Origin: a virus
DNA: 64,000 bases
Direction: 5' to 3' (one strand)
IMG/VR virus record: IMGVR_UViG_3300045999_011735
Span: 50,997 to 114,996 of that record
A program made the translations under genes and the position numbers. Below the pieces are notes generated by a model that was not told where the DNA came from, searched no databases, and saw only the letters and a program-made list of their open reading frames with translations. The stretch's first letter is position 1. Each line of letters begins with the position of its first letter. Below, piece by piece: positions 27,079 to 44,858 of this stretch.

Positions 27079-27090
27079 AATTTAATTTAG

Positions 27091-27474
27091 TGGAGGAGAC
27101 GGGAATCGAACCCGTGTATCCATAAGGAACAATAACACCAGCGTATCACATGCTTAGATCTGCAAGCTGATCAGTAATTGGGGACGCTAGTTTTGGTTAG
27201 CGTGCCTACCACCACCTAATTTTATGAAACTAGGAAAACTAGAGCTATAATACTGAGACTATAGCGGGGTTGCTGTTCTGTTGCAAGGCTATCAGCTGCC
27301 CCTTGCGGATTAGGCTGCTACAGCGTAATCGGCACCTACGAACGCCATTAAGTCGTCGAAGGTCATTGTTGACATTTCGTCATTTATTGGTTGAAAATTT
27401 GTTTAAAGACGACATATCCAAACGTCTGCATGTAGTGGTACCTTCACATTACGGAGCAATACCTGGACTCCCCC
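27091..27474 (-). ncRNA. ssrA: Transfer-messenger RNA (tmRNA) with a long tag
   Basis: The 5' GGGGGAG pairs with CTCCTCC before the encoded final A, and the 3' end carries a T arm CGGG-TTCGATT-CCCG and CCA. The tag frame ends at the TAA at 27310-27312 and closes with FVGADYAVAA, the AVAA-type degradation signal. Reading back, the open frame passes through FDDLMA and MSTMT to about 27384 (aat, or a nearby resume codon). That gives a tag of about 20-24 residues, versus about 10 in many bacteria. Total length about 384 bases in one piece. It rescues stalled ribosomes and tags products for proteolysis. Confidence 0.85.
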
Positions 27475-30462: not shown

Positions 30463-31395
30463 CTATTTTCGTATAAATATTAAATCTTGTTCAAATGATT
30501 CTAATGATTCTACATTAACTTTAACATTTCCTAACTCAAACATACCGATTTCGTTATTTTCTGCAACAATATCATTCAGTTGTGTTAAAAATGTGTAATC
30601 TTGTTGAGTAAAGGTATTAACATCTATTTCAACAACCACATTTGCTTCTTCAAGAGGAGATGTAAAGAATAAGTCTAATGCTTTAGTTAGGTCAGGAGTA
30701 GCATTACCTATAATAACATAAGCCTTTTTATATACCTTATTATATTTGGATATCCTAAAACCCCACTTTTTAATAAAGGCTAAGTTAGACATCATTTCGA
30801 TTTCTTGATAGTTATCTGATCTTGATGTTTTGCTCACAAAGTGATATACCATAGCTGCATTTGCTACTTTACATTCAAACCCAGCTAATTTATATCTTAA
30901 ATGCACATCATCATCTTCACAGAATTTTTTAAAGGTATATCCATCTATGTCAAGATAATCTTCTTTATAAACGGCAAAGAATAGTTGTGAACCACCATCA
31001 ATCAAAACATCATCTACAGTATATTGAAAGAATTTGTTTTTATCGTAATTTTCAATTCCACGACCACAATCAAATATAGATTTGCCTGGATATTCGTCTG
31101 TGTAAATTGGTGGTTCTACTCGATGATAAACTAATACCATTTTGCGTTTAATATGCTTTAAAATAGTTTCCACAAATCCAGGATGTGGCACCATATCATT
31201 ATGCATCAATACTACTACTTCACCTTTTGCTTTAGCTACAGCATTGTTAAAATTAATTCCTAAAGTCACATCATCATTTACTTCAACTACAATTTCAACT
31301 TCATTTTCATCAGGATATAACTCTCTGATTTGTTGAACCGCAAAGTCAGTATAATGTTGATTAGATGTGGTTGCTGGTATTATTAGTGATATCAT
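30463..31395 (-). CDS. GT2-family glycosyltransferase
   Basis: This is a 310-residue protein with the GT-A fold: SLIIPATTSNQHYTDFAV start, GEVVVLMHNDMVPHPGFVE (HND as the DxD equivalent), then CEDDDVHLRYKLAGFECKV, the acceptor-site region with EDD. It transfers a sugar from a nucleotide donor. It overlaps the next glycosyltransferase by 35 bases and forms the left end of the sugar island. Confidence 0.8.
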   Translation of the reverse strand: MISLIIPATTSNQHYTDFAVQQIRELYPDENEVEIVVEVNDDVTLGINFNNAVAKAKGEVVVLMHNDMVPHPGFVETILKHIKRKMVLVYHRVEPPIYTDEYPGKSIFDCGRGIENYDKNKFFQYTVDDVLIDGGSQLFFAVYKEDYLDIDGYTFKKFCEDDDVHLRYKLAGFECKVANAAMVYHFVSKTSRSDNYQEIEMMSNLAFIKKWGFRISKYNKVYKKAYVIIGNATPDLTKALDLFFTSPLEEANVVVEIDVNTFTQQDYTFLTQLNDIVAENNEIGMFELGNVKVNVESLESFEQDLIFIRK

Positions 31396-32254
31396 ATATC
31401 ATTCTGTTTTTAATTGATGGTATTGGTTTTACAAAATCATTATTATCAAATTGTGGCATTGCTCCCCATTTATTTAAAAATTTCTTTGCATTTTTATATT
31501 CATTAAGTCTTTGTCTTTCAGAAGATTGTCCATTGTTTTCTTCTAAACGATGTGAACCTCTACCTGCAAAATGCCAAATTACAGATTTAGTTGTTTGAAC
31601 AAATCCAAACCCTTCATTTTGCATTCTAATAAATAAGTCCATGTCTTCCCAAGATGTTGGAGCAAATAAGGCATCATTGCCTCCAATATAGTCCCAATCT
31701 TCTTTTCTAATTATAAACCCACCTGCACCTTCACATCTTCTTATTTGAATATCATTCAAGCTACTAAATTCTCTTGAAAATTCCAAAAATGCATTTTCAT
31801 TAAAATCATCATGATATGCCCCAATTGCATCTACAGGAAAGAATATATTACCTGGTTTTTGAGGTGGATTGTTAAATATGTTTGGTTGTATTCTCCAAGA
31901 CGATATGGCATATTTACTGTCATATTTTCTTATTTCATTTAATAATACTAAATCAAACTCTTCAGCAACATAAAAGTCAGATTGTAAAAATATAATATAT
32001 TCTGTTTTTACCTTACTAGCACAGAAGTTCATCCCACCACCTATTCCTCTAGCCGGTTCAAAATGTGGTTCAATATATATTTCTAGATTGTATTGATCTT
32101 TAACTTCTTCAAGCCATTCGTTTGTTCCATCAGTACAGTTTTCTGCATGTATTATAAATGGAGCATCTTTAAAATAGGCATTTTGTCTTACTGATTTGAT
32201 GCTCCATTTTAAATATTCTAGATTATTGTATGTTGAAATTGTAAATGTAATCAT
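31361..32254 (-). CDS. GT2-family glycosyltransferase
   Basis: This is a 297-residue protein: FTISTYNNLEYLKWSIKSVR, then EYIIFLQSDFYVAEEFD (SDF as DxD) and PTSWEDMDLFIRMQNEGFGF (ED acceptor motif), then a WHFAGRGSH segment. Full length for GT2. It overlaps the next gene of the island, as expected for a single operon. Confidence 0.8.
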   Translation of the reverse strand: MITFTISTYNNLEYLKWSIKSVRQNAYFKDAPFIIHAENCTDGTNEWLEEVKDQYNLEIYIEPHFEPARGIGGGMNFCASKVKTEYIIFLQSDFYVAEEFDLVLLNEIRKYDSKYAISSWRIQPNIFNNPPQKPGNIFFPVDAIGAYHDDFNENAFLEFSREFSSLNDIQIRRCEGAGGFIIRKEDWDYIGGNDALFAPTSWEDMDLFIRMQNEGFGFVQTTKSVIWHFAGRGSHRLEENNGQSSERQRLNEYKNAKKFLNKWGAMPQFDNNDFVKPIPSIKNRMIYDITNNTSNHI

Positions 32255-32257
32255 TTA

Positions 32258-32956
32258 TTATTGTTTTTTAAAGGTGAAATACCAATTCCATGATCTTCTT
32301 AAAGATTCATCCATTGTTGATTCGGACTCTATTCTAGGATAATCAGCAGTCATTAGAATTGATGGATAAACAGATACTGGATCCCAACCATGGGTATACA
32401 TAAAGTAGATAAAATTATCATAATCAAATAATCCTCTATAAATCCAATCATGTCCCATTCTCCAATTAGGTACTGAAATAGAGAATAAAGTATGTTCTGG
32501 GGTGTGGGTATGTAGATTTCTGATTAAATTACCTGGATTGCTAACATGTTCTAGGAAATCATTTGCTACTATTACATCATATTTGTCTGTTAATGGTGTA
32601 ACGTCAATTCCATCCATCATATTTTGAACTATGAATTTTCCTTTATATCCACGTTCATCAAATAATTGTTTAGCACCTATTTTATCTACAAACGTATAAT
32701 TACACCCTGTTTCATTAATAATTAACTGTCCTAAATATCCAGGACCAGATCCTAATTCTAACACATAACTATCTTTAGTTACATTAGTTTCATTTATTAT
32801 TAACTTTTTTTCGTATTCATATCTTTGCTTCCATATGTCTTCAGTATCTCTGAGTTGTCCTTCAGGTACAGTAGTCCATTCTAAATTTTGTTTTTCTTCA
32901 GTATGCTGAGTTACATAGTGTGCTTTAAAATCAACATCGTTTGAGTGTCTAAACAT
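32258..32956 (-). CDS. SAM-dependent methyltransferase
   Basis: This is a 232-residue class I methyltransferase: YVLELGSGPGYLGQLIINE (motif I), YTFVDKIGAKQLFDERG (motif II) and DVIVANDFLEHVSNPGNLIR (motif IV). The DFLEHV type is seen in sugar O-methyltransferases and small-molecule methylases. Within the sugar island it probably methylates a sugar or nucleotide-sugar. Confidence 0.8.
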   Translation of the reverse strand: MFRHSNDVDFKAHYVTQHTEEKQNLEWTTVPEGQLRDTEDIWKQRYEYEKKLIINETNVTKDSYVLELGSGPGYLGQLIINETGCNYTFVDKIGAKQLFDERGYKGKFIVQNMMDGIDVTPLTDKYDVIVANDFLEHVSNPGNLIRNLHTHTPEHTLFSISVPNWRMGHDWIYRGLFDYDNFIYFMYTHGWDPVSVYPSILMTADYPRIESESTMDESLRRSWNWYFTFKKQ

Positions 32957-32961
32957 GTTTT

Positions 32962-33693
32962 TTAAATTTTATAATTAAATGCTTTATTTCTTATTTCTGT
33001 AAATTTATTAAATTTTCCTGTTTCAGTAAAATATTCAAACATATTTCTTTCAGCCATGCTGTTTGTGTCGGATAATTCGTCTGCAAATAGCTTTAGTGTT
33101 TGACTAATTAAGTGAATAGTAGGTGTTTTATCACATACTCCCATTTTCCAATTATTTTCTTCACATATCATTGCTGATAGGCAATCTATACCCCATCCAT
33201 AAATTAATTTGGAAGGTATTGGATATAATTTTTCAGCTAATTCTCTTGAAAACATAGGTGCTTGGTAATCTATAAATGGTACTTCTCTAGTTGTACCTGT
33301 ATTCCAAGGTCTCATTGTTTTCCATATTGTTTGATCCCCTGTATGTGGTTCTAAAATGCAAGGTGAAATTAATTTAAAATCGCCTTTAAACATTTCTTCA
33401 CGTAATGTTCTAATATAGTTAGCTCCATGTAATAATACATCGTTATTTAAAATAATAACAGAATCATATTGTGGTGATTCTAAGAATAAATCTAAAATAA
33501 CACTTACACCACCTCCATAACGTACATTTTCTTCTAAAGCATGTGTTGTGTATTTACTAACTTTATCTTTATGTGAACCATTATCTATAACAGCAACGTC
33601 GTATATATCTTCTTCAAATGGTTTTAAAGTTTCATATAAACTATCTGTTAATTCAAATGTGTTGTATTGTAATATTGCTACTAGTGTTTTCAC
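32962..33693 (-). CDS. GT2-family glycosyltransferase
   Basis: This is a 243-residue protein: LVAILQYNTFELTDSLYETL, DVAVIDNGSHKDKV, NVRYGGGVSVILD and SVIILNNDVLLHG (NND as DxD). The NxGxxG segment resembles rhamnosyl- and related transferases. It shares one base with the stop of the next gene (33693). Confidence 0.75.
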   Translation of the reverse strand: MKTLVAILQYNTFELTDSLYETLKPFEEDIYDVAVIDNGSHKDKVSKYTTHALEENVRYGGGVSVILDLFLESPQYDSVIILNNDVLLHGANYIRTLREEMFKGDFKLISPCILEPHTGDQTIWKTMRPWNTGTTREVPFIDYQAPMFSRELAEKLYPIPSKLIYGWGIDCLSAMICEENNWKMGVCDKTPTIHLISQTLKLFADELSDTNSMAERNMFEYFTETGKFNKFTEIRNKAFNYKI

Positions 33694-34271
33694 TATATAC
33701 GTTTTAAAATAGTTAAACCATTATTGTTTGTATATGTTTCGTGAACATTCCATTCTTTATGTTCTTCTAAGAATTCATTTATGGCAGGTATTAGTCCTTT
33801 CTTTTCAGACCCGTTATACCACCCAAATTTATCATAGCTGTTTAATTCATCTTGATTTCCAAACAATACAGTATCGTGTAAAATAATATATTTTTTTACT
33901 TTTGAAGCATGTAGTGTTAATTCAGCACTTAGTTGTTTATATGAGTGCCAAGTATCAATGAATAATAAGTCAGTTTCGTCAATTTCTATTTCTAAATTAT
34001 TAGTTAACCAAAATTTATATTGACAATTTATGTCTCTAGCATATTGTTCAGCTAATTCAATACTAGCACCCCATTTTGATGGGTGTTGTATGTCAATAGA
34101 AAACATTTTTTTAGGCTTAGCAGCCAAGAAAGCATAAGTAGATACGATCCATCTTACACCCATTTCAGTTACATGTTCACATTCTTCAGCATACTTTTTT
34201 AATGTTGGAAGATGTTCATTAATATCTGATTCGGTTTTTACTAAGTATTTATATTTTTCTTCTAATGTCAT
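33693..34271 (-). CDS. Class I methyltransferase / cephalosporin-hydroxylase-like
   Basis: This is a 192-residue protein with VTEMGVRWIVSTYAFLAA (motif I), MFSIDIQHPSKWG, then DLLFIDTWHSYKQLSAELTL and YIILHDTVLFG. The DTWH..HDT pattern fits the CmcI-like group of Rossmann methyltransferases. It is coupled to both neighbours by overlapping codons. Likely substrate: a sugar or small metabolite. Confidence 0.65.
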   Translation of the reverse strand: MTLEEKYKYLVKTESDINEHLPTLKKYAEECEHVTEMGVRWIVSTYAFLAAKPKKMFSIDIQHPSKWGASIELAEQYARDINCQYKFWLTNNLEIEIDETDLLFIDTWHSYKQLSAELTLHASKVKKYIILHDTVLFGNQDELNSYDKFGWYNGSEKKGLIPAINEFLEEHKEWNVHETYTNNNGLTILKRI

Positions 34272-34891
34272 GTATTAGTATATTTTCGACTTATATCTCT
34301 GAAGTTTTCTATAAACACATACCCAGGATTACTTAGTATAAGTGGTTCAGATATTGTATTATAACTACGTAATAATGTTTCGCCATATCCTTTTGTAAAT
34401 CCAATTATACCCCAAGCATAAGCATTATCTTCTTTTGTAAATATACGCTTAGGTTTTTCATAAAACACATTTTCACATATAATTCCCCAGTTTGAATGGT
34501 CTTCAACATTGAATAAAGCAAACACACAGTCATTACCTGCTTTCATACATTTGGAAATATCAGTGAACATGTTTTCAGGATATTCGAATCTAGTATCAGG
34601 TAGTATCATTATGTTATATTCACCCCAATATTCTTTAGCACTTAGTAAAGATTCACCTGTAGATTCACCTCCACCAATTACATGTTCTATATTATTATCT
34701 TCTAGATATTTAATAAATTCTACTTTTTCTTTTCTAGTAATAATTACAGGTTCAATATTAAATCGTTTGCATATATTTAAAGACCACTCAATTGTTGGTT
34801 TTCCGTCTTCATCAGGTAATAATTCCTTAGCTTCATGAGGTTGCATTCTCATTCTTGTTCCATAACCAGCACAAGGTATTAATGCTTTCAT
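34268..34891 (-). CDS. Sugar nucleotidyltransferase
   Basis: This is a 207-residue protein with the nucleotidyltransferase signature ALIPCAGYGTRMRMQPHEAK then ELLP (GxGTRxxxxxxxxK), and NIMILPDTRFEYPE (DTR as DxD). It would activate a sugar phosphate to an NDP-sugar. Shorter than RmlA/RfbF (250-290), lacking part of the C-terminal region. It overlaps the RmlD-like gene by four bases. Confidence 0.8.
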   Translation of the reverse strand: MKALIPCAGYGTRMRMQPHEAKELLPDEDGKPTIEWSLNICKRFNIEPVIITRKEKVEFIKYLEDNNIEHVIGGGESTGESLLSAKEYWGEYNIMILPDTRFEYPENMFTDISKCMKAGNDCVFALFNVEDHSNWGIICENVFYEKPKRIFTKEDNAYAWGIIGFTKGYGETLLRSYNTISEPLILSNPGYVFIENFRDISRKYTNT

Positions 34892-35598
34892 AAAATACTA
34901 TTTAATTTTTCTAAATTCATTGATATATTTCCTGGTACGTGATCTGGTTTTTGTGATGGTTGAGTTTCTGGTTTTGTTTGTTTTGCTAGATCAAGCATTG
35001 TTTTAATCTCAGTACCTACATTGTAAATACCTGTTGCTTTTTTATTTATTAATTTAACAATTAAATCTGCTATTATATCTACATAATCAAAGTTTCCTAT
35101 TTGATTATACCAGGCATATTTAAATTCAAACGGTCTAGATTTAAATGAACATCTACAAATTAAATGGTTGTTGTTAGTTAACGAAATATATTCATCAGCT
35201 AACAATTTGTAGTATGTATACCAGTTGTTTGAAGGTACAGGCATATCCTCTTCAGTTGCATTGTTTACAGATCCAGCATAAACATAATCTGTTGAAATAT
35301 GTACTAACTTTATTTTATAAGCATTACACACATCAGAAAGTATACTAACCGCTTCATAGTTTACTTTATACATCGACTCTTTATCTGTTGAATATGTGTC
35401 TGTATTTGCAATGCAATTTACTACTACATCATATTTTGATGTTACTATAGTACCGTGATGTATTTCTAATAGAGTATCAGTAATATCTTTATTATTAGTA
35501 AGATCAAATCCATCTTTTTTTCTTGAAATATAATCCCATTTAGTTTGTTTTACTATTTCAGATCCTAACTTTCCATCTCCTAATACTAATACTTTCAT
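34888..35598 (-). CDS. RmlD-like NAD(P)-dependent sugar-nucleotide reductase
   Basis: This 236-residue short-chain-dehydrogenase-type protein has VLVLGDGKLGSEIVKQT (dinucleotide-binding GxGxLG), VVNCIANTDTYSTDKES and KLVHISTDYVYAG (Thr/Ser-Tyr region). A YYKLLADEYIS segment gives the YxxxK motif (Tyr-Tyr-Lys). It resembles dTDP-4-dehydrorhamnose reductase. Next to the RfbH-like gene, it may reduce the 4-keto group of a 3,6-dideoxy sugar nucleotide. Confidence 0.75.
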   Translation of the reverse strand: MKVLVLGDGKLGSEIVKQTKWDYISRKKDGFDLTNNKDITDTLLEIHHGTIVTSKYDVVVNCIANTDTYSTDKESMYKVNYEAVSILSDVCNAYKIKLVHISTDYVYAGSVNNATEEDMPVPSNNWYTYYKLLADEYISLTNNNHLICRCSFKSRPFEFKYAWYNQIGNFDYVDIIADLIVKLINKKATGIYNVGTEIKTMLDLAKQTKPETQPSQKPDHVPGNISMNLEKLNSIL

Positions 35599-36878
35599 TT
35601 GAATTTCTTTAAAACGTCTTCAATGTATCCAAATACAGGTTCACGATAATGAGGAGCAGCTCCAACAAAGAATACTTTATCAAGTACCTTATTTGCTTCA
35701 GGGTATTTTTTATAATCATCTAAAAATTCAAATCCAGGATGCATTAATATATTTCCTGCGAAGTAATTTCTAGTTTGTATTTTATTATCTTCTAGATGTT
35801 GTACTAATCTATGTTTTAATCCTTCTTCTTCACATATGATTGGAGTTCCAAACCAACATGGTTCTGCTTTATCTAATGTTTGAGGTACTCTTACATTTGG
35901 AATATATTTTAAAAATATTGATTCAATTACATCTTTAGAAAGTCTTCTATTTTTTTCTATTTCTTCAAATTTATCTAATTGAGCTAATCCAATAGCACCT
36001 TGCAAATCTAATGGTTTTAAATTAAATCCCATATTTGCAAACACGTATTTGTGATCAATTATACCATCATAATTTTCAAGCCATTTATCAAATCTGTTTC
36101 CACAAGTACCACATGATAATAAATTAGCTGATCCTACACAATAGCAATCTCTACCCCACCATGAAAAACTTACAAATAATGATTTTAATTTGTCATCATT
36201 AGTACAAACCATCCCACCTTCACCTGTTGAAATGTGGTGTGCTGGGTAGAATGAGTTTGAATGTGCTATATAATAATCTGTTAAGAGTAACCCTCCCCAC
36301 TTGCTTCCTAAGCTGTCACAGTTGTCACCTATCAACTTGAGATCATACTTATTTGCTAATTCTACTAGCTTATCAAAGTCGGGAGGATTACCTAGTACAG
36401 GAGAAACAAATATACCTTTTGTTTTTGGTGTAATTTTTTCTTCAATTTTATTTACATCAAAGTTTAAAGTATCCCATTCAATATCTACAAATACAGGTTT
36501 TAATCTATTTTGATAAATTACAGATACTGTTGTTGCAAATCCAACAGGCGACACGATTAATTCATCATCGTCTTGCCAATTGAATCGTTTTTTAAGAGCA
36601 GCAATCAATACTAAGTTAGCAGATGAACCTGAGTTCACCATGTGAGCATGCTTTTGATTGAATTTCTTTGCAAATCTGCTCTCAAATTTATGTACTTTTT
36701 CTCCTGCTACAATCCACTTTCCATTTAAGAAAGCATCCATAGCAGCTACTATCTCATTACTATCCCAGTAAGGACCTGAATAATATACTGGTGTTTTGCC
36801 AGGTTCAAAATGGTCATTATAAATGTATTTTGGAACATGGTTTCCAGCTAATGCTTGTATGTTTGATAATTCTATCAT
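35595..36878 (-). CDS. RfbH-like CDP-4-keto-6-deoxyglucose 3-dehydrase
   Basis: This is a 427-residue DegT-fold protein in which the PLP lysine is replaced: SNSFYPAHHISTGEGG has His214/His215 where aminotransferases have Lys, as in RfbH/E1. RDCYC and SCGTCGNRF give Cys245, Cys247, Cys256 and Cys259, matching the [2Fe-2S] region of RfbH, and Cys187 in GDNCDSLGS may be a further ligand. RfbH uses PMP and an iron-sulfur cluster to remove the C3 hydroxyl, the step to 3,6-dideoxyhexoses. The upstream dehydratase (RfbG) and E3 reductase are not in this window. Confidence 0.8.
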   Translation of the reverse strand: MIELSNIQALAGNHVPKYIYNDHFEPGKTPVYYSGPYWDSNEIVAAMDAFLNGKWIVAGEKVHKFESRFAKKFNQKHAHMVNSGSSANLVLIAALKKRFNWQDDDELIVSPVGFATTVSVIYQNRLKPVFVDIEWDTLNFDVNKIEEKITPKTKGIFVSPVLGNPPDFDKLVELANKYDLKLIGDNCDSLGSKWGGLLLTDYYIAHSNSFYPAHHISTGEGGMVCTNDDKLKSLFVSFSWWGRDCYCVGSANLLSCGTCGNRFDKWLENYDGIIDHKYVFANMGFNLKPLDLQGAIGLAQLDKFEEIEKNRRLSKDVIESIFLKYIPNVRVPQTLDKAEPCWFGTPIICEEEGLKHRLVQHLEDNKIQTRNYFAGNILMHPGFEFLDDYKKYPEANKVLDKVFFVGAAPHYREPVFGYIEDVLKKFK

Positions 36879-37543
36879 TTATATATTTTTTCCCAATCAA
36901 TTACTGGTGCAAGCCATTCTACTTCACAATGTGTTGATAAACTAGGTATTGGAGCTAAAACGCTTCTTCCTTTATATGCTGATAAATGTTCAAATCGGCC
37001 TCTATCACTTGGATTGCTAGTATGAATATCAAAGTCTTCATTAATTATTCTTTTAGATACTAATACACTACCTGTACTACTTGGAACTGTTTTCCAATGG
37101 TGTGTTTTAGTAGGAAGAATATATGAAGTTAATCCAGGATAGTGGTTTGGATTGTAAAAATCAGGATGATCATATAACGTTACATAATCAATATCTTCAT
37201 AAGTACTAAATAGTTCTTTTGCTTTAAAGGGCCATTCAGGTCTAAATGCATAGTCATTTTCAGCAAAGTATACTATATCGTCATCATTTAGATTTAAATT
37301 TTTAGCATAATTCCAAGTATAAAGATATGAAGCCCAATCAGATCCTCCCTTAAAAACCTCAGTACAATGTATTCTAGAATCATTAATTTGGCAATCACCA
37401 TCAAACATTAAGTGGAATTTAACAAAGTCTAATCCATCTATTGTTGATAATATATTATTTAAACTTTTTTCATATGAAAACCAGCTAGGTCTGTTTTTAC
37501 CAAACCCACTGTGATTAGTATGTCTATAAAGTATGTGTATCAT
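36875..37543 (-). CDS. Glycosyltransferase-like protein of the sugar island
   Basis: This is a 222-residue protein with DDDIVYFAENDYAFRPEWPF (END as possible DxD) and an N-terminal RHTNHSGFGKNRPSWFSYEK segment. No exact family is recognised; similar proteins occur beside sugar genes in large phages. It overlaps the RfbH-like gene and the NeuD-like gene by four bases each. Confidence 0.6.
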   Translation of the reverse strand: MIHILYRHTNHSGFGKNRPSWFSYEKSLNNILSTIDGLDFVKFHLMFDGDCQINDSRIHCTEVFKGGSDWASYLYTWNYAKNLNLNDDDIVYFAENDYAFRPEWPFKAKELFSTYEDIDYVTLYDHPDFYNPNHYPGLTSYILPTKTHHWKTVPSSTGSVLVSKRIINEDFDIHTSNPSDRGRFEHLSAYKGRSVLAPIPSLSTHCEVEWLAPVIDWEKIYK

Positions 37544-38127
37544 TTTATTCTTTTTGCAGGTACACCAACATATATACCCGATTCTATAAGATCTGTTACT
37601 ACAGCCGCATTTGCTCCTATAGTAATAGATTCATTAATTATTAATTTTTCTCTTATAGAAGCATTGTTTCCCATATACACTTTATCTTGAATTTTAACAT
37701 TACCTGATACTATAGAACCAGGCATTGCGCTAAAATAGTCTCTAATTATACAATCATGTCCAATATGAACTGCTCTGTTCAATATTGCATGATCTCCTAT
37801 TTCTATATTATATGTTAATACACAATTAGCTCCTATAAAAGAGCCTTGTCCTATATTAACATAAGATAATACTAATGCCGATGGGTGAATATATGAAAAA
37901 TATTTTGTGTTTCCAGGGAGTTTATTAAACATTTCAGATCTATCTTGAGGTTTTGCTATTGCTATCATTACCTCATATTCTGTAGGGTCAAATTCAGATA
38001 ATGGAAATATATAATCGTTGTTTTCTTTCCAGTATTTATCATCTACAAAGCACTTCATTGTAAAATCTCCAATGTGTGCTCTTACTTCTTGAGCGTGTCC
38101 TCCAGCGCCTATTAATGCTCTTTTCAT
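37540..38127 (-). CDS. NeuD/PglD-like sugar acyltransferase
   Basis: This is a 195-residue protein. The N-terminal Rossmann-like part is MKRALIGAGGHAQEVRAHIG, and the C-terminal left-handed beta helix has hexapeptide repeats (IGQGSFIGANCVLTYNIEIG; ITIGANAAVVTDLI). It ends GIYVGVPAKRIK, a classic closing motif. His107 in HDCII or nearby could be catalytic. It acetylates amino-sugars in sialic-acid and bacillosamine pathways; the half-size aminotransferase at 38748 could supply an amino-sugar. Confidence 0.85.
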   Translation of the reverse strand: MKRALIGAGGHAQEVRAHIGDFTMKCFVDDKYWKENNDYIFPLSEFDPTEYEVMIAIAKPQDRSEMFNKLPGNTKYFSYIHPSALVLSYVNIGQGSFIGANCVLTYNIEIGDHAILNRAVHIGHDCIIRDYFSAMPGSIVSGNVKIQDKVYMGNNASIREKLIINESITIGANAAVVTDLIESGIYVGVPAKRIK

Positions 38128-38751
38128 TTAACTTTTATTTTGGTAGTACCAACAGTTATCATTATTAAAGACCTTTAAATTATTCTCATTAGCATAATCA
38201 TGCACTGCTCTACGTACAGTTTCCCATGTATAATCATCTCCGATTATATTTGCGTTTGGCCATAATTTATGAGTAATTTTAATATCATGTAAAACAGAAT
38301 CATAATCATGGTGCGCATCTATATAGACTAAATCAAAAGGAATATTCATTTTACCTAATATTTCTAAACCTTCTACTGTTTTAGCTCTAAGTGGGGTTAA
38401 ATGGTGTTTATGATCCCACATATTAACTAAAAACGTTTCCCACAATACACTAATTTGAGGCCATAATTCTTTTACTTGTTCGATACCAAATTCTTCTTGG
38501 ACATAATCGTTCATATCTTTACTCCAATGATCTATACACACTATATGAGCATCTGGGGCGTTTTCTGCTATGAATTTTGTTGAACCTGCTCCTGTCCAAC
38601 TTCCCATTTCTAGAATATATTTAGGTTTTAAATCTCTTATTACTGATTTTAGTATGTGGTGGTTTCCTATTCCAAACCAATTATGGCTATCTTTATTAAT
38701 ATTTGGTTTTTCACTAGGCCATTGAAACAGAGATTCTATTCGTTCTTTCAT
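38128..38751 (-). CDS. Class I methyltransferase (MTase_24-like)
   Basis: This is a 207-residue protein with PKYILEMGSWTGAGSTKFIA (motif I), AHIVCIDHWSKDMN (motif II), PFDLVYIDAHHDYDSVLHDI (motif IV) and NANIIGDDYTWETV. The IDAHHDYDSV type is common in methyltransferases next to glycosyltransferases. It is coupled to the DegT-like gene. Confidence 0.75.
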   Translation of the reverse strand: MKERIESLFQWPSEKPNINKDSHNWFGIGNHHILKSVIRDLKPKYILEMGSWTGAGSTKFIAENAPDAHIVCIDHWSKDMNDYVQEEFGIEQVKELWPQISVLWETFLVNMWDHKHHLTPLRAKTVEGLEILGKMNIPFDLVYIDAHHDYDSVLHDIKITHKLWPNANIIGDDYTWETVRRAVHDYANENNLKVFNNDNCWYYQNKS

Positions 38752-39377
38752 TGTTTATAGATGTCAAATTTAGATAAATCTGGATATGGTAATTCTAAAT
38801 CAGTATTGTGCTTTTTGGTTCCATCTATATTATAGAATTGATTCATTAATAGTAATCCTCTAGCTGCTAACTCAGGCATCATATAGAAATTCCATCCTAG
38901 CATATCAAAATTATCATCATGATATGAACATTCTCTTCTACCACTATATCTTGCTCTTTTAAACCAGTGATATGCTTCTAAACTGTCAGTTAAGATAGCT
39001 CCACCTTTACTTAATTTAAAATGCTTATAAGGACCTGTAAATGAAACACACATATGAGTTCCTGGTTTGTACATGTCTGCTGTAAAGCATAAAGCACTGT
39101 CCCAAACATTAGTAGGTGCTAATTGATAAGCTCCTTTTAATGTTTTACCTTCTACAGGTGTAAATTTTACTTTAGCACCAGCATGAATAATTTCACAAGG
39201 TACAGATGGGTATGTACGAGCAGGGATTGTTACTTCTTTTCCTTTAACATTTTCAAACATTAAAGCCAAGAATAAAGCATTACTTTGGTTATCTACAGTT
39301 ACTACGTAAGGAGCACCTGTATAGTCAGCTAGTGCTTTTTCGAAATCTTCTGTTATTTTATAAATACCATTTGCCAT
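38748..39377 (-). CDS. Half-size DegT/DnrJ-type aminotransferase-like protein
   Basis: This is a 209-residue protein matching only the N-terminal large domain of DegT/DnrJ/EryC1 enzymes (normally about 370-400 residues). It has DYTGAPYVVTVDNQSNALFL, VTIPARTYPSVPCEIIHAGA and SFTGPYKHFKLSKGGAILTD, with Lys as the PLP candidate. The C-terminal small domain is missing and the stop is followed directly by the next gene upstream in the operon order. It may be a minimal enzyme or one half of a complex. Confidence 0.65.
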   Translation of the reverse strand: MANGIYKITEDFEKALADYTGAPYVVTVDNQSNALFLALMFENVKGKEVTIPARTYPSVPCEIIHAGAKVKFTPVEGKTLKGAYQLAPTNVWDSALCFTADMYKPGTHMCVSFTGPYKHFKLSKGGAILTDSLEAYHWFKRARYSGRRECSYHDDNFDMLGWNFYMMPELAARGLLLMNQFYNIDGTKKHNTDLELPYPDLSKFDIYKQ

Positions 39378-39380
39378 AAT

Positions 39381-40007
39381 CTATATTTTTTCGTAAAAAG
39401 CATTTTGTTTTTCTTGACGCTCAATTGTTTTAGAATGTACTAATTCATATCCTTTAGGTAAATTAGCTATTGTTTTCCAACCTGCAAGACGCTCGTGTAC
39501 TTTGTTAATCCACGTTATTTCCTTTTTATTAGCGCATATACGTGTTTGGAAATCAGGATAATTAACCCACCCATTATCATCTACAAACCATCTCCATTTA
39601 TCAATGTGATCACGAGTTAATCCTTCGACAGTATTAATTCTAGGTACGGCGATTAGATCTACTAAATCTTTATTCATGTCTAATATACCATGAATATTTT
39701 CAGCTAATCCATCACTTAGATATTCATCTGCATCAATAAAGAATACCCAATCACGTGTACAGTGGTTTTTAACATTATTTTTAAATGATGCAAAGTCACC
39801 ATTTAGTGAAGCGAATATTCTATGATATTCAAAAGATTGTCCAACATTATATTTGTTGGCTACTTTTTTAACCTCGTCTGTAGCAGTTGAATCTAATTGA
39901 ACCATTATTTCATCACCTGGTTTGATGATGGTTACTAGTTGATCTAGTAAACGCTCTAGTTCAACATGTTCATTCCATGCTGTAATTGCAAAACTAATTG
40001 TAGACAT
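39381..40007 (-). CDS. GT2-family glycosyltransferase
   Basis: This is a 208-residue protein: SFAITAWNEHVELERLLDQL, DEIMVQLDSTATDEVKKVA, TRDWVFFIDADEYLSDGLAE with the DAD metal motif. The short length and the missing C-terminal acceptor domain resemble small SunS/WaaE-like enzymes. It is four bases from its upstream neighbour. Confidence 0.8.
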   Translation of the reverse strand: MSTISFAITAWNEHVELERLLDQLVTIIKPGDEIMVQLDSTATDEVKKVANKYNVGQSFEYHRIFASLNGDFASFKNNVKNHCTRDWVFFIDADEYLSDGLAENIHGILDMNKDLVDLIAVPRINTVEGLTRDHIDKWRWFVDDNGWVNYPDFQTRICANKKEITWINKVHERLAGWKTIANLPKGYELVHSKTIERQEKQNAFYEKI

Positions 40008-40010
40008 AAC

Positions 40011-40256
40011 TTAGTCATTTAATAACTCTTTTTTAGATTCATTAGATACTGAATTTGTATCTGTTGATACCCACTGTTTATATTTTTCAGCAGCACTTAG
40101 TAAGGTTTCATTTGGTTCATAGTCATAATAGATAACATCATCATTTACTTCTTTGATTTTTTCCTTTAACATGTCCCATTGAGCTGGGGTTATGTTATGA
40201 TGATGTGCTCCTTCCATGAATCCTTTAAACCAAATTACAAAGTCTCTACTTGTCAT
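40011..40256 (-). CDS. Conserved phage hypothetical protein
   Basis: This is an 81-residue protein starting TSRDFVIWFKGFMEGAHHHN and continuing ITPAQWDMLKEKIKEV, a pattern common in small proteins of large phages. Function unknown. It overlaps the next gene by four bases. Confidence 0.65.
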   Translation of the reverse strand: MTSRDFVIWFKGFMEGAHHHNITPAQWDMLKEKIKEVNDDVIYYDYEPNETLLSAAEKYKQWVSTDTNSVSNESKKELLND

Positions 40257-40684
40257 AACGAATTTAATTTTAAAATAGCAGATGCAAATGATTCTCTTGG
40301 AAAATGTTCCATTAAACTCATATCAATTCTATGAGTTTGATTTTTTGGAAAACGTGCTTTTTCCTCTTCTTTAATTGGTACTAATGGAGCAACTGTCCAT
40401 TTCCAAGCATCTTTATTACTTCCATTTGGAAATAATATACCTTTTTCAGCTATATTGATTGTACTTGGATACCATACGAATCCATCTTTATCTACTATTT
40501 CTAAATCTTTAATTAGTTCTGGGAGTGATTCTTTTGCATTTGTTACAAAGTCGCTGTCCTGTACCATGTGTGAAGTGCTTCCGTATCCACAATTAAAACA
40601 CATCCATTGAATGAATTGTTCATGATGATACTCATAACACATTTCAGCGTCACAACATGGACACTTAATTAAATTGTCAGTCAT
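40253..40684 (-). CDS. Zinc-ribbon protein
   Basis: This is a 143-residue protein. CPCCDAEMCYEYHHEQF followed by WMCFNCGYGS gives two CxxC pairs of a zinc ribbon, and the C-terminal part is beta-rich. Role unknown; zinc ribbons of this type often contact RNA polymerase or nucleic acid. Confidence 0.7.
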   Translation of the reverse strand: MTDNLIKCPCCDAEMCYEYHHEQFIQWMCFNCGYGSTSHMVQDSDFVTNAKESLPELIKDLEIVDKDGFVWYPSTINIAEKGILFPNGSNKDAWKWTVAPLVPIKEEEKARFPKNQTHRIDMSLMEHFPRESFASAILKLNSL

Positions 40685-40707
40685 AATATAAAGGTATAAA
40701 CTATATT

Positions 40708-40893
40708 TTAGAATCCAAACAACTTCTTAATTTTATCTAATAAAGATGTTTTTATTTCAACATCACGATTAGATACAAATGGAGTTGTTTCTGGAGCAAG
40801 AACTGGAAGTTCAACATTCTTTTTCTTTGATGTTGGTTTCTTTGCAGTTGTTGCTTTTTTAGTTGTTACCTTTTTTGTGGTTTTCTTTTCCAT
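40708..40893 (-). CDS. Lys/Thr-rich small protein
   Basis: This is a 61-residue protein with a KKTTKKVTTKKATTAKKPTS tail-like N-terminus, similar to histone-H1-like low-complexity tails, and a C-terminal helix LLDKIKKLFGF. It may bind DNA or RNA. An ATATTTATA box lies 17 bases before its ATG. Confidence 0.65.
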   Translation of the reverse strand: MEKKTTKKVTTKKATTAKKPTSKKKNVELPVLAPETTPFVSNRDVEIKTSLLDKIKKLFGF

Positions 40894-40909
40894 GATTGAT
40901 TTGTTTGTA

Positions 40910-40918
40910 TATAAATAT
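40910..40918 (-). promoter_or_regulatory. Second-class promoter box ATATTTATA
   Basis: The box lies between the GT4 gene end and the Lys/Thr-rich gene, 17 bases before the ATG at 40893, with no -33 element. Confidence 0.45.
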
Positions 40919-40921
40919 AGA

Positions 40922-42223
40922 TTATTGTTCTATCTTTTTAAGTTTAGGCAACTTAAGTTCAACTTGTTTTGGAAATTCAGGAGTATACTTTTTAAGTAAT
41001 TCGTCTAACACCTCAACCATTTTGTCAAATGAGAAATTTTGTTTATTTCTGTATGCGAGGCGTTTTGCTTTTTCTTGATATTCTTTATAGTTGGTAAATA
41101 CATCCATTAAAGCATGTCCTGATTGGTTATCATCAGGTTTGAACCACATTGATTCAGCCAATATTGTATTAGCAACAGCCGCACTTGGGTGTACTTGATT
41201 TAATGTACCTCCTACTAAGCCACAGAGTTCAGAATTTAAGAAATCTAAATGCCCACTCCATCCACTAGCAATAATTGGTTTTCCAATAACACTAAATTCA
41301 AGTAACGGGCGTCCAAATCCTTCACCTTTAGTAAAGGACACCATTGCTTTTACTTTTGGGTGGTTGTATATGCAATTTACTTCATCATCACTCAAATCAC
41401 CATGGATTAAGTAGATATTAGGTATATCTTTTGAATTTACTGTTTTTCTAATATCATCTATCTTCTTCAAAATATTGTCTCTATCTATAATTGAAGGAGC
41501 ACCTTGTGATACTTTTAAAATTAGTCCTGGTTTGTTTTTCTTTCCTTTAAATACTTCAAGGAATGCTTTAATCATGTATCCAACATTCTTTCTATCTTCA
41601 GCATAGTCACCTTGCAACCAGTGCCCTACAAATAAGTAACAGAATTCTTCTTTAATTGTATTTAAATCATCATAAATGTCAAAATCAACAATATCGTCCG
41701 ATTTAAAATATTTATTTAAATCAGCACCTTCAAATAATATTTCAAGTGGTTTTTTTAATTCAATTACGTTTACTAATTGACCATTTGGTGCTTTCTGTTC
41801 AAATTTACTACTTTGAAATACTTTTTTAGAATGATCAGATGATACTAAATTTAGAGTCATTCTATTACAACCTTCAATCCAACTAGGATCGCATGTTGTA
41901 GTTTCAATACCTGCTGTAACACCAATATTGAATTTACCTAATGGTTGAAATTCATTTGGTACTGTAATTTGGATCCATACTTCAGGTTGTTTAGGAACAC
42001 TCATTGTTAGTTTTCCAATGATTCTATTTTTCAAATCTTCTTCTTCAGCAATGTTTGTATCTAAAGCACCGAATGGTGTTTGTCCCCATCTTTGAGATAA
42101 TATTTTAATATCCCATTCTTCACCTTTAATTTTGATAAGTGATTTTACAAAATCACGAGATCTAGCTCCGTATCCACTATACGTGTCAATAGGGCAACTT
42201 ACTATACAAAGTGGTTTACTCAT
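40922..42223 (-). CDS. GT4-type (GT-B) glycosyltransferase
   Basis: This is a 433-residue protein. The N-terminal domain has SGYGARSRDFVKSLIK, and the C-terminal donor domain has YLFVGHWLQGDYAEDRKNVG and a late VSFTKGEGFGRPLLEFSVIG with the E-x7-E motif, then KPIIASGWSGH. Full length for family GT4. It overlaps the second GT4 gene by four bases. Confidence 0.8.
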   Translation of the reverse strand: MSKPLCIVSCPIDTYSGYGARSRDFVKSLIKIKGEEWDIKILSQRWGQTPFGALDTNIAEEEDLKNRIIGKLTMSVPKQPEVWIQITVPNEFQPLGKFNIGVTAGIETTTCDPSWIEGCNRMTLNLVSSDHSKKVFQSSKFEQKAPNGQLVNVIELKKPLEILFEGADLNKYFKSDDIVDFDIYDDLNTIKEEFCYLFVGHWLQGDYAEDRKNVGYMIKAFLEVFKGKKNKPGLILKVSQGAPSIIDRDNILKKIDDIRKTVNSKDIPNIYLIHGDLSDDEVNCIYNHPKVKAMVSFTKGEGFGRPLLEFSVIGKPIIASGWSGHLDFLNSELCGLVGGTLNQVHPSAAVANTILAESMWFKPDDNQSGHALMDVFTNYKEYQEKAKRLAYRNKQNFSFDKMVEVLDELLKKYTPEFPKQVELKLPKLKKIEQ

Positions 42224-43662
42224 AACGAAATTACAGTTTTATTTTGTTTTGCAGGTAATTCTTCAATTTTTATAAAATTATAACATTCTCTAGGCTCCCA
42301 TTTTTCAAGAGTTTTATCAATATATTTGATAACATTTTTAGCCATATTTTTAGATGTCATCATTGCTTCATCTGATGTAACCCATTTACGAGCGGCTTCT
42401 CCTCTACGTTTACGTTCATCAGAACTTAATTCATATAGTGCTTTTATTTGAGCAGCTGCATCTCTAAAATCAGCTCTATCATCAAAGATATAAGGTGTTG
42501 GGACTGAACCTACAAGAGATAAATTTGATGGAAATACTGGGAAGGCCCATTCACCACATTTTTTATATTTTCCAAAATGGTTTGATCCAAATTCTTCAGT
42601 GAATTTAATCCATTCACCATTTTCATCTTCAAAGCGCATTTGGTCTTGCATACCACCAGTTACGTTGGCAATGATTGGTTTTCCACACATCATAGCTTCA
42701 GTTAAACTTAATCCCCATCCTTCATTCGATGAAATCAAAATACAAGCATCCATTGAATTGTATAGTAAATTCATTTGTTCAGGAACAAATCTATTTAATC
42801 CTGTAATTAATACATTTGGAGGATTTTTACCCCAAATCATTTCAATTACAGCAGGAATATCTGTTCCGTTTTCATCTACAGGGTGTGTATGAGCTATAAA
42901 TGCTACTTTATCTTTTTTATCTTCTGGAAGTTGGTCTACAAATAATTTCCAAGCTAATAGTACATCTGGGAATGATTTGCGTCTAATGTTTCTAGAGTTA
43001 AATCCTAAAACAAAGTCAAATTCTTTTTTTCCAAATATGTTCTTTTTAAACTCTTCAAGTTCTTTTCCTTTATCTGTTCCTTCCTGAATAGGGAAGAATA
43101 CATCTTCATTTATACCATGAGGCACATATCCTATTACTTTGTCTTTGGCTTTATCACCTAACACAGCATGATTTAAGTTTTCAGTCTGTTTAGAAATAGC
43201 TAATAAACCATCACATGATTCGTAATATGGTCTGTTGTAAAGTGGATAAGGCAATGAATCCCAAATGTTCAAATAAATAATTGGAACTTGAGAACGTATC
43301 TCTCTTTCATGCATCCACAACCAAATCCAATAACGTGGATCTGTAAACAACATGATTGCGTCTGGTTTTTCAACTTCAAGTAATGCTCTAATGGCTTCAA
43401 TAGTTCCATATCCAGAACTAGGGTATAATGTTACTTGAGCATCTTCAATTCCATTAAATTTATTTGCATCTGCACTTAAATCTAATTTTTTACCTTCGTC
43501 TGGGTGTTTGATTGTACTACCTAAATTTATCCAATTGTAGTAATGGCAGGTACCTAAAATCATTTCCCTTGCCATAGTTGCAATACCAGAAGTTGTTCTG
43601 ATATCATCTGATAATAGTAAAATCTTTTTACGTTGTGCTTGTGGAATGTAACCTTCTTTCAT
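42220..43662 (-). CDS. GT4-type (GT-B) glycosyltransferase
   Basis: This is a 480-residue protein: LLLSDDIRTTSGIATMAREM at the start, LAISKQTENLN, FVLGFNSRNIRRKSFPDVLL (phosphate/UDP region) and ILISSNEGWGLSLTEAMMCG (E-x7-E), then KPIIANVTGGMQDQM. Full length. It joins the replication operon to the sugar island with an 18-base gap to the upstream small gene. Confidence 0.85.
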   Translation of the reverse strand: MKEGYIPQAQRKKILLLSDDIRTTSGIATMAREMILGTCHYYNWINLGSTIKHPDEGKKLDLSADANKFNGIEDAQVTLYPSSGYGTIEAIRALLEVEKPDAIMLFTDPRYWIWLWMHEREIRSQVPIIYLNIWDSLPYPLYNRPYYESCDGLLAISKQTENLNHAVLGDKAKDKVIGYVPHGINEDVFFPIQEGTDKGKELEEFKKNIFGKKEFDFVLGFNSRNIRRKSFPDVLLAWKLFVDQLPEDKKDKVAFIAHTHPVDENGTDIPAVIEMIWGKNPPNVLITGLNRFVPEQMNLLYNSMDACILISSNEGWGLSLTEAMMCGKPIIANVTGGMQDQMRFEDENGEWIKFTEEFGSNHFGKYKKCGEWAFPVFPSNLSLVGSVPTPYIFDDRADFRDAAAQIKALYELSSDERKRRGEAARKWVTSDEAMMTSKNMAKNVIKYIDKTLEKWEPRECYNFIKIEELPAKQNKTVISL

Positions 43663-43916: not shown

Positions 43917-44858
43917 TTAAAAAGAATTTAACTTGTTACAAAGAGAGGGATTGTTGTTAAATTGGCACCATTTACATAAAGGTCCTACTTGTTTTAGGTG
44001 TTCTTTAACTAATGGTTTTCCATCTTTATCAAAACAATCTTCTATAAATGTACGAAAGCCTTCTAATGTAGCCGAACGTTTTCTTGGGCCTGATGCAGGA
44101 GTGAATGTTTGAATCCTAGGAATCGGATATTCACTGTTTTCCCATATTTTACGCTTCACAATGAAGAATTCAACTTCAATTTTATCTATATCCCAATTGA
44201 ATAATTTACTAAAGTATTCTTTATAAAGTAATATTTGTGATGTTTTAGTTTCGTTTCGTTTATCCTCGTCTCTCCATCCACGTTTTGAGGTTTTAATATC
44301 GTAAATACAAATGGTGTCTGTATTTTCATTATATAGTATAAAATCGATAAAACCCCTAAATTTAACATTAGGATAATTTTCATGCGGAGTATATGCTAAA
44401 GGAAATTCAATTCCTATAAGGTGAGTTTTACGAGATGAAAAATATTCTCCTCGTTTTTTAAGGAAAAATTCTATTATTTCTCTTCCATCCTCGAAGTATT
44501 CAGCCATTTCAGCTGCTGAGGAGAAGTGTGTTTTGTGATTTTGTTCGAATCCTGTTTTGTATTCTTCCCTAAATGTGTTTTCAAACAGGCCTATAATATC
44601 TTCCCTGTCAGCAGCTGCTCCACTTTGTTCATACATTACTTTAAGGTAATGCTGTAATGCTGTATGCATTGCTGTTCCAAATGTAAGTTCAATGCTTGGG
44701 GGGTTCTTATGTTTATCTACACTTTGAAGCTTCCACTTGTGTGGGCATTGCTTCCAAGTAGAATACTGTGAATATGAAACTATTTTTTCTTTACTCCAAT
44801 CAATCTCTGTTTCTTTATGCTCGAGTAGAGGCTTTAGATGCTTTGGTAGTTTTTTCAT
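43917..44858 (-). CDS. RecB/Cas4-type PD-(D/E)XK nuclease
   Basis: This is a 313-residue protein with SYSQYSTWKQCPHKWKLQ, LTFGTAMHTALQHYL, then FRGFIDFILYN and ICIYDIKTSKRGW: D-x20-DxK of the nuclease core. It ends CKWCQFNNNPSLC. The Cys in QCPHK plus the three late Cys fit the [4Fe-4S] site of Cas4/AddB nucleases. Likely a 5'-3' exonuclease in recombination or replication, replacing T4-type end processing. It overlaps the gp62-like gene by 44 bases. Confidence 0.85.
   Translation of the reverse strand: MKKLPKHLKPLLEHKETEIDWSKEKIVSYSQYSTWKQCPHKWKLQSVDKHKNPPSIELTFGTAMHTALQHYLKVMYEQSGAAADREDIIGLFENTFREEYKTGFEQNHKTHFSSAAEMAEYFEDGREIIEFFLKKRGEYFSSRKTHLIGIEFPLAYTPHENYPNVKFRGFIDFILYNENTDTICIYDIKTSKRGWRDEDKRNETKTSQILLYKEYFSKLFNWDIDKIEVEFFIVKRKIWENSEYPIPRIQTFTPASGPRKRSATLEGFRTFIEDCFDKDGKPLVKEHLKQVGPLCKWCQFNNNPSLCNKLNSF

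Follow-up and report, generated by a model that had tools for sequence, protein, structure and literature searches.

Clusters of genes for sugar synthesis and transfer have been described in cyanophages and jumbo phages, where they were read as modifying lipopolysaccharide (LPS) or capsule (Iyer et al., 2021; PMC7824862). Like the locus analysed here, which lies in a 64,000-nucleotide window of an IMG/VR virus record, these clusters combine several glycosyltransferase (GT) families with NDP-sugar enzymes, vary in content between relatives and, in some cases, are accompanied by a second cluster with carbamoyltransferases. The present locus differs in that a fixed gene head marks the slot, a dehydratase (E1) and its paired reductase form a recurrent module, and PF11397 transferases together with Thr-Pro-rich tail proteins point to virion proteins rather than LPS. 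No Pfam family corresponding to the PfkB sugar kinase or the HIGH-type nucleotidyltransferase of complete jumbo-cyanophage clusters was found among the island genes. Phage-encoded transferases have been tied to particle glycoproteins in mycobacteriophages (Freeman et al., 2023, cited in PMC12619734) and in XacN1 (PMC5852040), and the available portions of these accounts describe neither Thr-Pro mucin-like tails nor an E1-type sugar island. For the XacN1 virion, at least two glycoproteins are reported, but the text names neither the proteins nor the enzyme (PMC5852040).

The same slot order (nuclease, GT1a, GT1b, small ORF, GT2, variable genes, half-length DegT) is found in Flavobacterium phage immuto (Immutovirus; MW353176), which also has related capsid, terminase and baseplate genes. 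However, immuto carries no E1, PF11397 or Thr-Pro-rich proteins, and its genes were annotated only one by one. The phage under study, whose record (G000) is incomplete, is of the Bacteroidota type (probably a Flavobacterium phage), and a megablast comparison with known phages returned no match.

A fixed head and an exchangeable interior

The sugar island that the first-pass annotation had placed at 30463-43662 is confirmed, and the recurrence of its E1 and the synteny of its head (below) make it more than a chance arrangement. ORF calling of the window recovered 18 minus-strand ORFs with the same coordinates, and families were assigned to them with Pfam, PHROGs and NCBIfam. The locus is indeed rich in glycosyltransferases, but the proposed six plus GT-like proteins become five clear GTs by Pfam or PHROG, namely three GT2 (starting at 30463, 31361 and 39381) and two GT1 (40922 and 42220), and two GT-like proteins. 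Three methyltransferases, a short nucleotidyltransferase, a short RmlD-type reductase, an RfbH/E1-type dehydratase, a half-length DegT protein and a NeuD acyltransferase were also identified. Joining of genes by short overlaps was reproduced as well: neighbouring ORFs share 1 or 4 bases at 10 of the 17 junctions and 35 bases at one more.

43917..44858, minus strand: PD-(D/E)XK nuclease, fixed edge of the island (a boundary, not a sugar gene); placed by synteny with immuto
42220..43662, minus strand: GT1a, GT-B glycosyltransferase of the head (Pfam GT1, 47.7 bits; 36/36 slot loci)
40922..42223, minus strand: GT1b, GT-B glycosyltransferase of the head (below the Pfam cut-off; PHROG 2170, 9e-14; 36/36)
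40253..40684, minus strand: ORF143, function-unassigned protein fixed in the head (36/36)
40011..40256, minus strand: ORF81, small function-unassigned protein frequent in the head (14/36)
39381..40007, minus strand: GT2c, GT-A glycosyltransferase with which the fixed head ends (Pfam, 35.7 bits; 36/36)
38748..39377, minus strand: DegTs, half-length DegT-like protein (Pfam profile positions 24-98 of 360 only; 14/36, median identity 85%)
38128..38751, minus strand: MT24 methyltransferase, variable interior (Pfam; 5/36)
37540..38127, minus strand: NeuD/PglD-type sugar acyltransferase, variable interior (NCBIfam TIGR03570, 163.4 bits; cut-off 160.8)
36875..37543, minus strand: ORF222, putative glycosyltransferase of GT-A fold (AF2 pLDDT 88; Foldseek match to SpsA, E 7e-7)
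35595..36878, minus strand: E1/RfbH-type PMP and [2Fe-2S] dehydratase (NCBIfam RfbH, 354 bits)
34888..35598, minus strand: RmlD-like short SDR that pairs with E1, probably as a 4-ketoreductase (RmlD, 80.7 bits)
34268..34891, minus strand: short nucleotidyltransferase, variable interior (weak Pfam/NCBIfam scores below cut-off; AGxGTR signature; 9/36)
33693..34271, minus strand: CmcI/rhamnosyl-O-methyltransferase-like protein (Pfam, 26.6 bits)
32962..33693, minus strand: DUF707 GT-like protein (Pfam, 24.6 bits)
32258..32956, minus strand: Methyltransf_23 methyltransferase (Pfam, 54 bits; missing from the siblings G002 and G003)
31361..32254, minus strand: GT2b glycosyltransferase, distal end (Pfam, 44.6 bits; 79-84% identity in siblings)
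30463..31395, minus strand: GT2a glycosyltransferase, distal end (Pfam, 37.2 bits; 81-87% identity in siblings)

Using the nuclease as an anchor to delimit slot loci, we found the order nuclease-GT1a-GT1b-ORF143-GT2c in all 36 related loci. The interior that comes next is hypervariable and over these loci comprises 227 ORFs in 89 families, 49 of them singletons. The island thus consists of a fixed head and an exchangeable interior. In siblings, the island ends are kept at 79-87% identity, whereas the interior is swapped; DegTs is 81% identical to its counterpart in immuto. ORF222 has no family match in Pfam, PHROGs or NCBIfam, but its AF2 model matched GT-A enzymes in Foldseek, with SpsA ranked first.

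The E1-RmlD pair and the supply of donor sugars

The E1 protein aligns over nearly its full length (residues 21-419) with the solved E1, CDP-4-keto-6-deoxyglucose-3-dehydrase (PDB 3bcx; E 3.5e-71), and shares with E1/RfbH and ColD the DegT fold, the His at the site of the PLP lysine and the four Cys ligands. H214 aligns with the His of the solved enzyme, whereas the 3bb8 sequence has Lys at this position; H214 and C187, C245, C247 and C259 are invariant among its relatives, both viral (80/80) and cellular (16/16). The Cys pattern, C187-X57-C245-X1-C247 followed by C259 at X11, departs from that of E1 (C-X57-C-X1-C-X7-C) in the last gap, which is X11 (or X8). Given that its RfbH score of 354.3 bits is below the NCBIfam equivalog cut-off of 423 bits, we file the protein as an E1-type relative rather than RfbH proper. 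Such relatives are encoded in 552 IMG/VR stretches. The RmlD-like protein is short (236 aa versus about 285), and within the slot interior the two genes always occur together (8/8 loci). Retention of catalytic residues, which the first-pass annotation had left to alignment, was observed in E1 (H214 and the four Cys), in both GT1s (EX7E) and in the RmlD-like protein (GxxGxxG and YxxxK).

The partners RfbF, RfbG and E3 of E1/RfbH were not found with the phage protein. Homologues of RfbF and RfbG, which had been proposed as targets of a search in the rest of the genome, are absent from the incomplete record, and in 38 records of related phages none exceeded the cut-off (39 records in all); a search for an E3-type reductase domain likewise found none. 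The suggestion that the phage makes and attaches modified sugars is supported in part: it encodes enzymes for modifying and transferring sugars of the deoxy and amino type, but self-sufficient synthesis is not supported. Among 19 cellular genomes that carry E1, RmlB is encoded in at least 12 and RfbG in one, making host dTDP-4-keto-6-deoxyglucose the likelier substrate. Judging from this gene content, the phage probably uses this host compound, dTDP being more likely than CDP as the nucleotide carrier.

PF11397 transferases and Thr-Pro-rich tail-region proteins

Three features had escaped the first-pass annotation: the architecture of head and variable interior, another glycan cluster (52880-61496), and the Thr-Pro-rich proteins that are the probable acceptors. 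The second cluster comprises the following genes.

60213..61496, minus strand: GT60a, PF11397 transferase with predicted ppGalNAcT-like fold (236.6 bits; AF2 pLDDT 92; DSH invariant)
58921..60213, minus strand: GT60b, PF11397 paralogue of GT60a (183.1 bits)
57983..58921, minus strand: 312-aa protein (no Pfam family; homologues in 14/47 GT60 loci)
56918..57979, minus strand: 353-aa protein (no Pfam family; homologues in 9/47 GT60 loci)
55285..56916, minus strand: NodU/CmcH-type carbamoyltransferase (Pfam, 213 bits)
52880..55288, minus strand: HtrL/YibB-domain protein closing the cluster (Pfam, 38.3 bits; in 36/47 GT60 loci)

Both transferases exceed the PF11397 gathering score of 21, and the probable CAZy counterpart of this family is GT60. 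In sequence comparison with the PDB, PF11397 gave no real match, the profiles stopping short of ppGalNAc-transferases (ppGalNAcTs), so that a fold search was needed. The top 24 PDB matches of the AF2 model are all polypeptide GalNAc-transferases (E 1e-10 to 1e-7, TM about 0.5), suggesting a relationship that is visible by predicted fold only. The carbamoyltransferase adjoins PF11397 also in the isolate XacN1, in which the PF11397 gene is ORF334. In Trypanosoma cruzi, GT60 enzymes add GlcNAc to Thr of mucins (PMC9472816, PMC3769586). The phage proteins have in common with these alpha-GlcNAc-transferases (TcOGNT) and with ppGalNAcTs (GT27) the PF11397 family and the ppGalNAcT-like predicted fold, and Thr-Pro/Ser-rich candidate acceptors adjoin the phage genes. 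By contrast, the phage enzymes would act in the cytoplasm, with no Golgi and no recognised lectin domain, and their activity is a prediction.

Giant Thr-Pro-rich tail-region proteins, identified by scans of protein composition (a stricter DNA pattern misses G003 and G014), are present in 6/6 genomes with PF11397 and in 0/5 without it. Isolates that combine PF11397 with Thr-Pro proteins include Stenotrophomonas phage RAS14 and XacN1. Such a protein lies within 10 kb of PF11397 in 23 of 47 dereplicated loci and within 300 bp in 14 loci, against a null mean of 6.6. Their assignment to the tail region derives from synteny with immuto: they stand after the string of baseplate and tail genes, in the place that tail fibre and spike genes occupy in immuto, and PHROGs gives no function for the tail genes that precede them. 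Mucin-like phage tails were not found in the open-licence literature. A hydroxyproline acceptor made by a prolyl hydroxylase, as in Skp1 Gnt1, was considered and rejected, PF13640 being found in only 1/17 records (G034), which itself has no PF11397.

A physical link between E1 and PF11397 is seen in one relative lineage only (contigs G006 and G007). In G006 the genes are contiguous, in the order tail genes, two Thr-Pro proteins, two GT60, E1, RmlD and, further on, carbamoyltransferase and HtrL. Four other genomes have E1 (G019 and G038 with RmlD-like genes; G020 and G021) but neither PF11397 nor Thr-Pro proteins. The island therefore does not need that acceptor, and we reject the Thr-Pro proteins as the acceptor of every E1 island.

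Destination of the island's sugars

We lean slightly towards reading the island as a phage glycan-assembly cassette for cytoplasmic glycosylation of the phage's own virion tail proteins. The exchangeable interior would set which sugars are made and attached: E1 and the RmlD-like protein would convert host nucleotide-4-keto-6-deoxyglucose to a 3,6-dideoxyhexose donor, further variety of sugars may come from NeuD, the methyltransferases and the nucleotidyltransferase, and soluble phage transferases would place them on virion proteins in the cytoplasm. The giant Thr-Pro-repeat protein may represent one acceptor class, primed by the GT60/ppGalNAcT-like pair; the association is strong, though short of proof. 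Given that related phages with PF11397 also have these proteins, it is probably its own tail that the phage coats with sugars. The weakest step is that this island's own sugars would end on Thr-Pro proteins, for which the contiguous genes of a single lineage (G006/G007) speak.

The main rival is remodelling of host LPS, in which phage enzymes would act on lipid-linked precursors of O-antigen or capsule and so alter the surface of the infected cell, for example to block superinfection; a lasting change of this sort would be useful under lysogeny. Polymorphic clusters of GTs and epimerases in jumbo cyanophages were read in this way (PMC7824862), cytosolic GTs can act on the undecaprenyl-linked precursors of the host with no need of membrane proteins from the phage, and some phages with an E1 island have neither PF11397 nor Thr-Pro proteins. 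Nevertheless, we regard such remodelling as unlikely. Neither the island nor the ten E1-bearing records encode a protein with more than four predicted transmembrane segments, and hence they offer no candidate flippase, polymerase, ligase or initiating membrane transferase; the flippase, polymerase and initiating sugar-phosphate transferase of a Wzx/Wzy locus were not found in these ten records. Furthermore, in one relative E1-RmlD sits between PF11397 and the carbamoyltransferase, in a stretch that comes straight after tail genes.

That the island GTs glycosylate bases of the phage DNA as a defence against restriction appears improbable, even though phage GTs for DNA hypermodification are well known, with both GT-A and GT-B folds, and sibling G002 has the deazaguanine genes QueC, QueD, FolE and DpdA. 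A sugar pathway is not required for the deazaguanine route, and PF00303 (thymidylate synthase/dCMP hydroxymethylase family) is missing from G000-G003, G020, G021, G026, G037 and G038 (the G000 record being incomplete), so that the hydroxymethyl base that usually serves as acceptor is not supplied by this route; the hypervariable, multi-step set for deoxygenation, acylation and methylation also far exceeds the needs of known DNA sugars. Still more remote is production of a soluble sugar-derived metabolite, antibiotic-like or acting on host metabolism, instead of a glycoconjugate. Carbamoyltransferases and DegT enzymes are known from secondary metabolism, and one carbamoyltransferase-containing cyanophage cluster was proposed to make a metabolite (PMC7824862), but here many transferases are accompanied by no scaffold-building enzyme (PKS, NRPS or terpene) among the annotated genes, and every slot locus has the fixed GT head.

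Returning to virion glycosylation, a broader proposal, plausible yet short of probable, is that tailed phages possess mucin-type O-glycosylation of their own, in which the GT60/ppGalNAcT-like pair primes Thr and hypervariable islands, among them the present one with its E1-made 3,6-dideoxyhexose, extend the chains. In such a pathway, and with equal reserve, the acceptors would be kilo-residue Thr-Pro repeat tail proteins, priming would be cytoplasmic and the outcome would be a changeable glycan coat for each phage.

Phage sugar clusters are usually interpreted as tools for LPS, or their genes are simply labelled 'auxiliary'; the alternative considered here places the acceptor in the virion. 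In that case, related phages differing mainly in the island interior would differ in their coat glycan, which would matter for adsorption, for how hosts and grazers recognise the phage, and for its serology. A mucin-type phage pathway, if true, would bring the ppGalNAcT/GT60 branch, mostly eukaryotic so far, into bacterial viruses.

The island and its place in the phage genome

The capsid, portal-like gp20 and terminase of G000, the IMG/VR phage record of 114,996 bases that holds the window (bases 50997-114996; GC content ~31%), are 55-59% identical to those of Flavobacterium phage immuto (MW353176), which marks G000 as a T4-like tailed phage; its host is probably Flavobacterium or another member of the Bacteroidota. 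Features of the window are as follows.

12882-12979 (-), weak additional tRNA (Rfam, 36 bits; not called by ARAGORN)
27088-27474 (-), phage tmRNA (Rfam, 65 bits) with a 23-aa tag, DEMSTMTFDDLMAFVGADYAVAA; six tRNAs adjoin
30463-43662 (-), sugar island of 18 ORFs
34888-35598 (-), RmlD-like protein
35595-36878 (-), RfbH-type dehydratase (E1)
36875-37543 (-), ORF222, no family match; AF2 model (pLDDT 88) resembling GT-A enzymes
38748-39377 (-), half-length DegT protein, with just one fifth of the DegT profile matched
39381-40007, 40253-40684, 40922-42223 and 42220-43662 (-), GT2c, ORF143, GT1b and GT1a, the island head
43917-44858, PD-(D/E)XK nuclease
46653-48284 (-), GroEL (PHROG 5725, E 7e-149), kept in siblings and immuto
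48465-48755, ORF resembling GroES by size alone
52880-61496, second cluster, with GT60b (58921-60213) and GT60a (60213-61496)
61605-63242 (-), 545-aa protein with repeated TASYALTASFA/SNFIG motifs

The tmRNA tags of siblings G002 and G026 start nearly identically to that of G000 and differ at their ends. G002 also carries FolE, QueC, QueD and a DpdA-like gene (L185-L193, about 93-107 kb of its record), a set for deazaguanine DNA modification; no homologues were found in G000, a partial record.

The analysis bears out the island of the first-pass annotation. All genes lie on the minus strand; ten of the 17 junctions have an overlap of 1 or 4 bases, and at one further junction it is 35 bases. 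Pfam, PHROGs and NCBIfam assign five glycosyltransferases, three methyltransferases and one each of the following: a DUF707 protein, a nucleotidyltransferase and an RmlD-type SDR (both short), the RfbH-type enzyme, a NeuD acyltransferase and the half-length DegT protein. All 80 viral and all 16 cellular relatives of E1 share its catalytic His and four Cys; EX7E is kept in both GT1 proteins, and GxxGxxG and YxxxK in the RmlD-like protein. The loss of catalytic residues that the first-pass annotation named as a possible refutation is therefore not seen in E1, the two GT1 proteins or the RmlD-like protein. The island is genuine and, in these enzymes, catalytically intact.

Related loci were anchored on the flanking nuclease, chosen as independent of the sugar genes. 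The order nuclease, GT1a, GT1b, ORF143, GT2c recurs in all 36 loci with enough room, with a 67-aa ORF after the nuclease in 35. Downstream of GT2c, 227 ORFs fall into 89 families, 49 of them singletons, and E1 occurs in eight loci, every time with the RmlD-like gene. In G002 and G003, siblings that are ~80-90% identical on either flank, MT23, the CmcI-like gene and the nucleotidyltransferase have been swapped out. Bacterial O-antigen loci likewise have fixed ends and an exchangeable middle; here this layout lies within a phage genome. The best conserved interior gene is the half-length DegT (81-95% identity, where neighbours often show 50-65%).

Sugar supply and the E1-reductase pair

The first-pass annotation held that the phage seems able to make its own modified sugars and called for a search for RfbG (CDP-glucose 4,6-dehydratase) and RfbF (CDP-glucose synthase) in the rest of the genome. 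Neither has a homologue in G000. Related phages, in 38 records that are in many cases fragments, give no match that attains the curated cut-off, and no E3-type reductase domain is present. Self-sufficient synthesis is thus not upheld, and what stands is the narrower claim that the phage modifies host-made nucleotide sugars. Among 19 cellular genomes bearing E1 relatives, RfbG exceeds the cut-off in one, and at least 12 have RmlB; since RmlB is frequent regardless (10/14 control genomes), the absence of RfbG is the informative part. A Bacteriovoracaceae locus (L111) has an RmlA/RmlB-like pair, identified by sequence appearance and an RmlB match, 1-2 kb from E1. We infer that the phage draws on host dTDP-4-keto-6-deoxyglucose and on host reductases, from which it would make a 3,6-dideoxyhexose donor.

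In most of the 80 E1 loci, collected by similarity, the next gene encodes an RmlD-like protein or a 271-aa SDR, and a related 272-aa SDR often precedes E1 relatives in cells; this recurrence makes E1 plus a ketoreductase the likely working unit. Viral E1 proteins form one clade (support 100/100) in a set gathered by similarity to the E1 of G000. An intein with a LAGLIDADG domain interrupts one E1 gene (L122:7958-10711), whose contig resembles phage DNA and has been assigned to a Woesearchaeota MAG (KatS3mg002). A Bacteroidia E1 relative (L106:3982-8971) is followed by a thiamine-enzyme-like and a 649-aa SDR-like protein, resembling, by sequence appearance alone, a branched-chain (yersiniose-type) sugar cluster.

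PF11397 transferases and Thr-Pro-rich proteins

The second cluster, absent from the first-pass annotation, encodes HtrL/YibB, a carbamoyltransferase, two unknown proteins and two PF11397 transferases (GT60a and GT60b). A screen for PF11397 picked it up in 7 of 17 phage records with E1 and in 0/14 control cellular genomes. The first 24 PDB matches of the GT60a model (pLDDT 92) are all polypeptide GalNAc-transferases, which start mucin O-glycosylation in animals; at a TM of about 0.5, the modelled kinship is one of fold. D100-S101-H102, unvaried in 46/46 sequences, resembles the DXH metal motif of polypeptide GalNAc-transferases. Trypanosoma cruzi GT60 enzymes attach GlcNAc to Thr of mucins (PMC9472816, PMC3769586).

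G000 itself has two Thr-Pro-rich proteins outside the window (record 35105-40738), one of 1612 aa with 256 Thr-Pro dipeptides and one of 246 aa. The near-identical contig G001 has a further Thr-Pro protein (1174 aa), 3.6 kb from GT60a and just beyond the window end; the 545-aa repeat protein, probably a tail structural protein, lies between the two. Relatedness of the genomes weakens all of the following counts: Thr-Pro-rich proteins occur in 6/6 genomes with PF11397 (G000, G002, G003, G006, G014, G026) and 0/5 without (G019, G020, G021, G038, immuto), and 23 of 47 dereplicated PF11397 loci have one no more than 10 kb away, 14 of them no more than 300 bp, against 6.6 expected for random genes from the identical loci (2000 draws, maximum 14). 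Just 2 of the 80 E1 loci have one, both also with PF11397, and the nuclease-slot loci none.

The Thr-Pro proteins follow a string of baseplate wedge, 362-, 117-, 1531-, 220-, 340- and 333-aa proteins and take the position occupied in immuto by the tail fibre and tail spike genes. Homology to the G006, G014 and G026 Thr-Pro proteins extends over part of a 333-aa tail protein of G000. In G006, the tail genes are followed by PT409, PT716, GT60a, GT60b, E1, RmlD-like, 310 aa, 292 aa, carbamoyltransferase, 338 aa and HtrL, in that order, which physically ties the E1/RmlD-like module to Thr-Pro proteins in a single lineage.

Possible roles of the two clusters

An O-antigen machine of the phage's own is unlikely, because no island protein has a predicted TM segment and no protein in ten E1-bearing records has more than four. 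DNA glycosylation is disfavoured, since G000-G003 and G026 lack a PF00303 gene, the G000 record being incomplete. The main rival, a possible one that agrees with Iyer et al. (PMC7824862), is that the island feeds host LPS precursors. We give even chances to glycosylation of virion proteins as the main role. Among isolates, only XacN1, RAS14 and CM1 carry PF11397; Thr-Pro-rich ORFs lie within 20 kb of it in XacN1 and RAS14, and a carbamoyltransferase adjoins it in XacN1. The authors of the XacN1 study described at least two virion glycoproteins and proposed that the phage's own glycosyltransferases, among which they name ORF328 and ORF334, may make them (PMC5852040); ORF334 is the PF11397 gene.

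The fuller mucin-type reading, in which the GT60 pair would prime Thr-Pro tail proteins and the islands extend the chains, is offered more tentatively. The island itself is a new variant of already known phage sugar clusters; the stronger and new lead is the second cluster with its Thr-Pro tail-region proteins.
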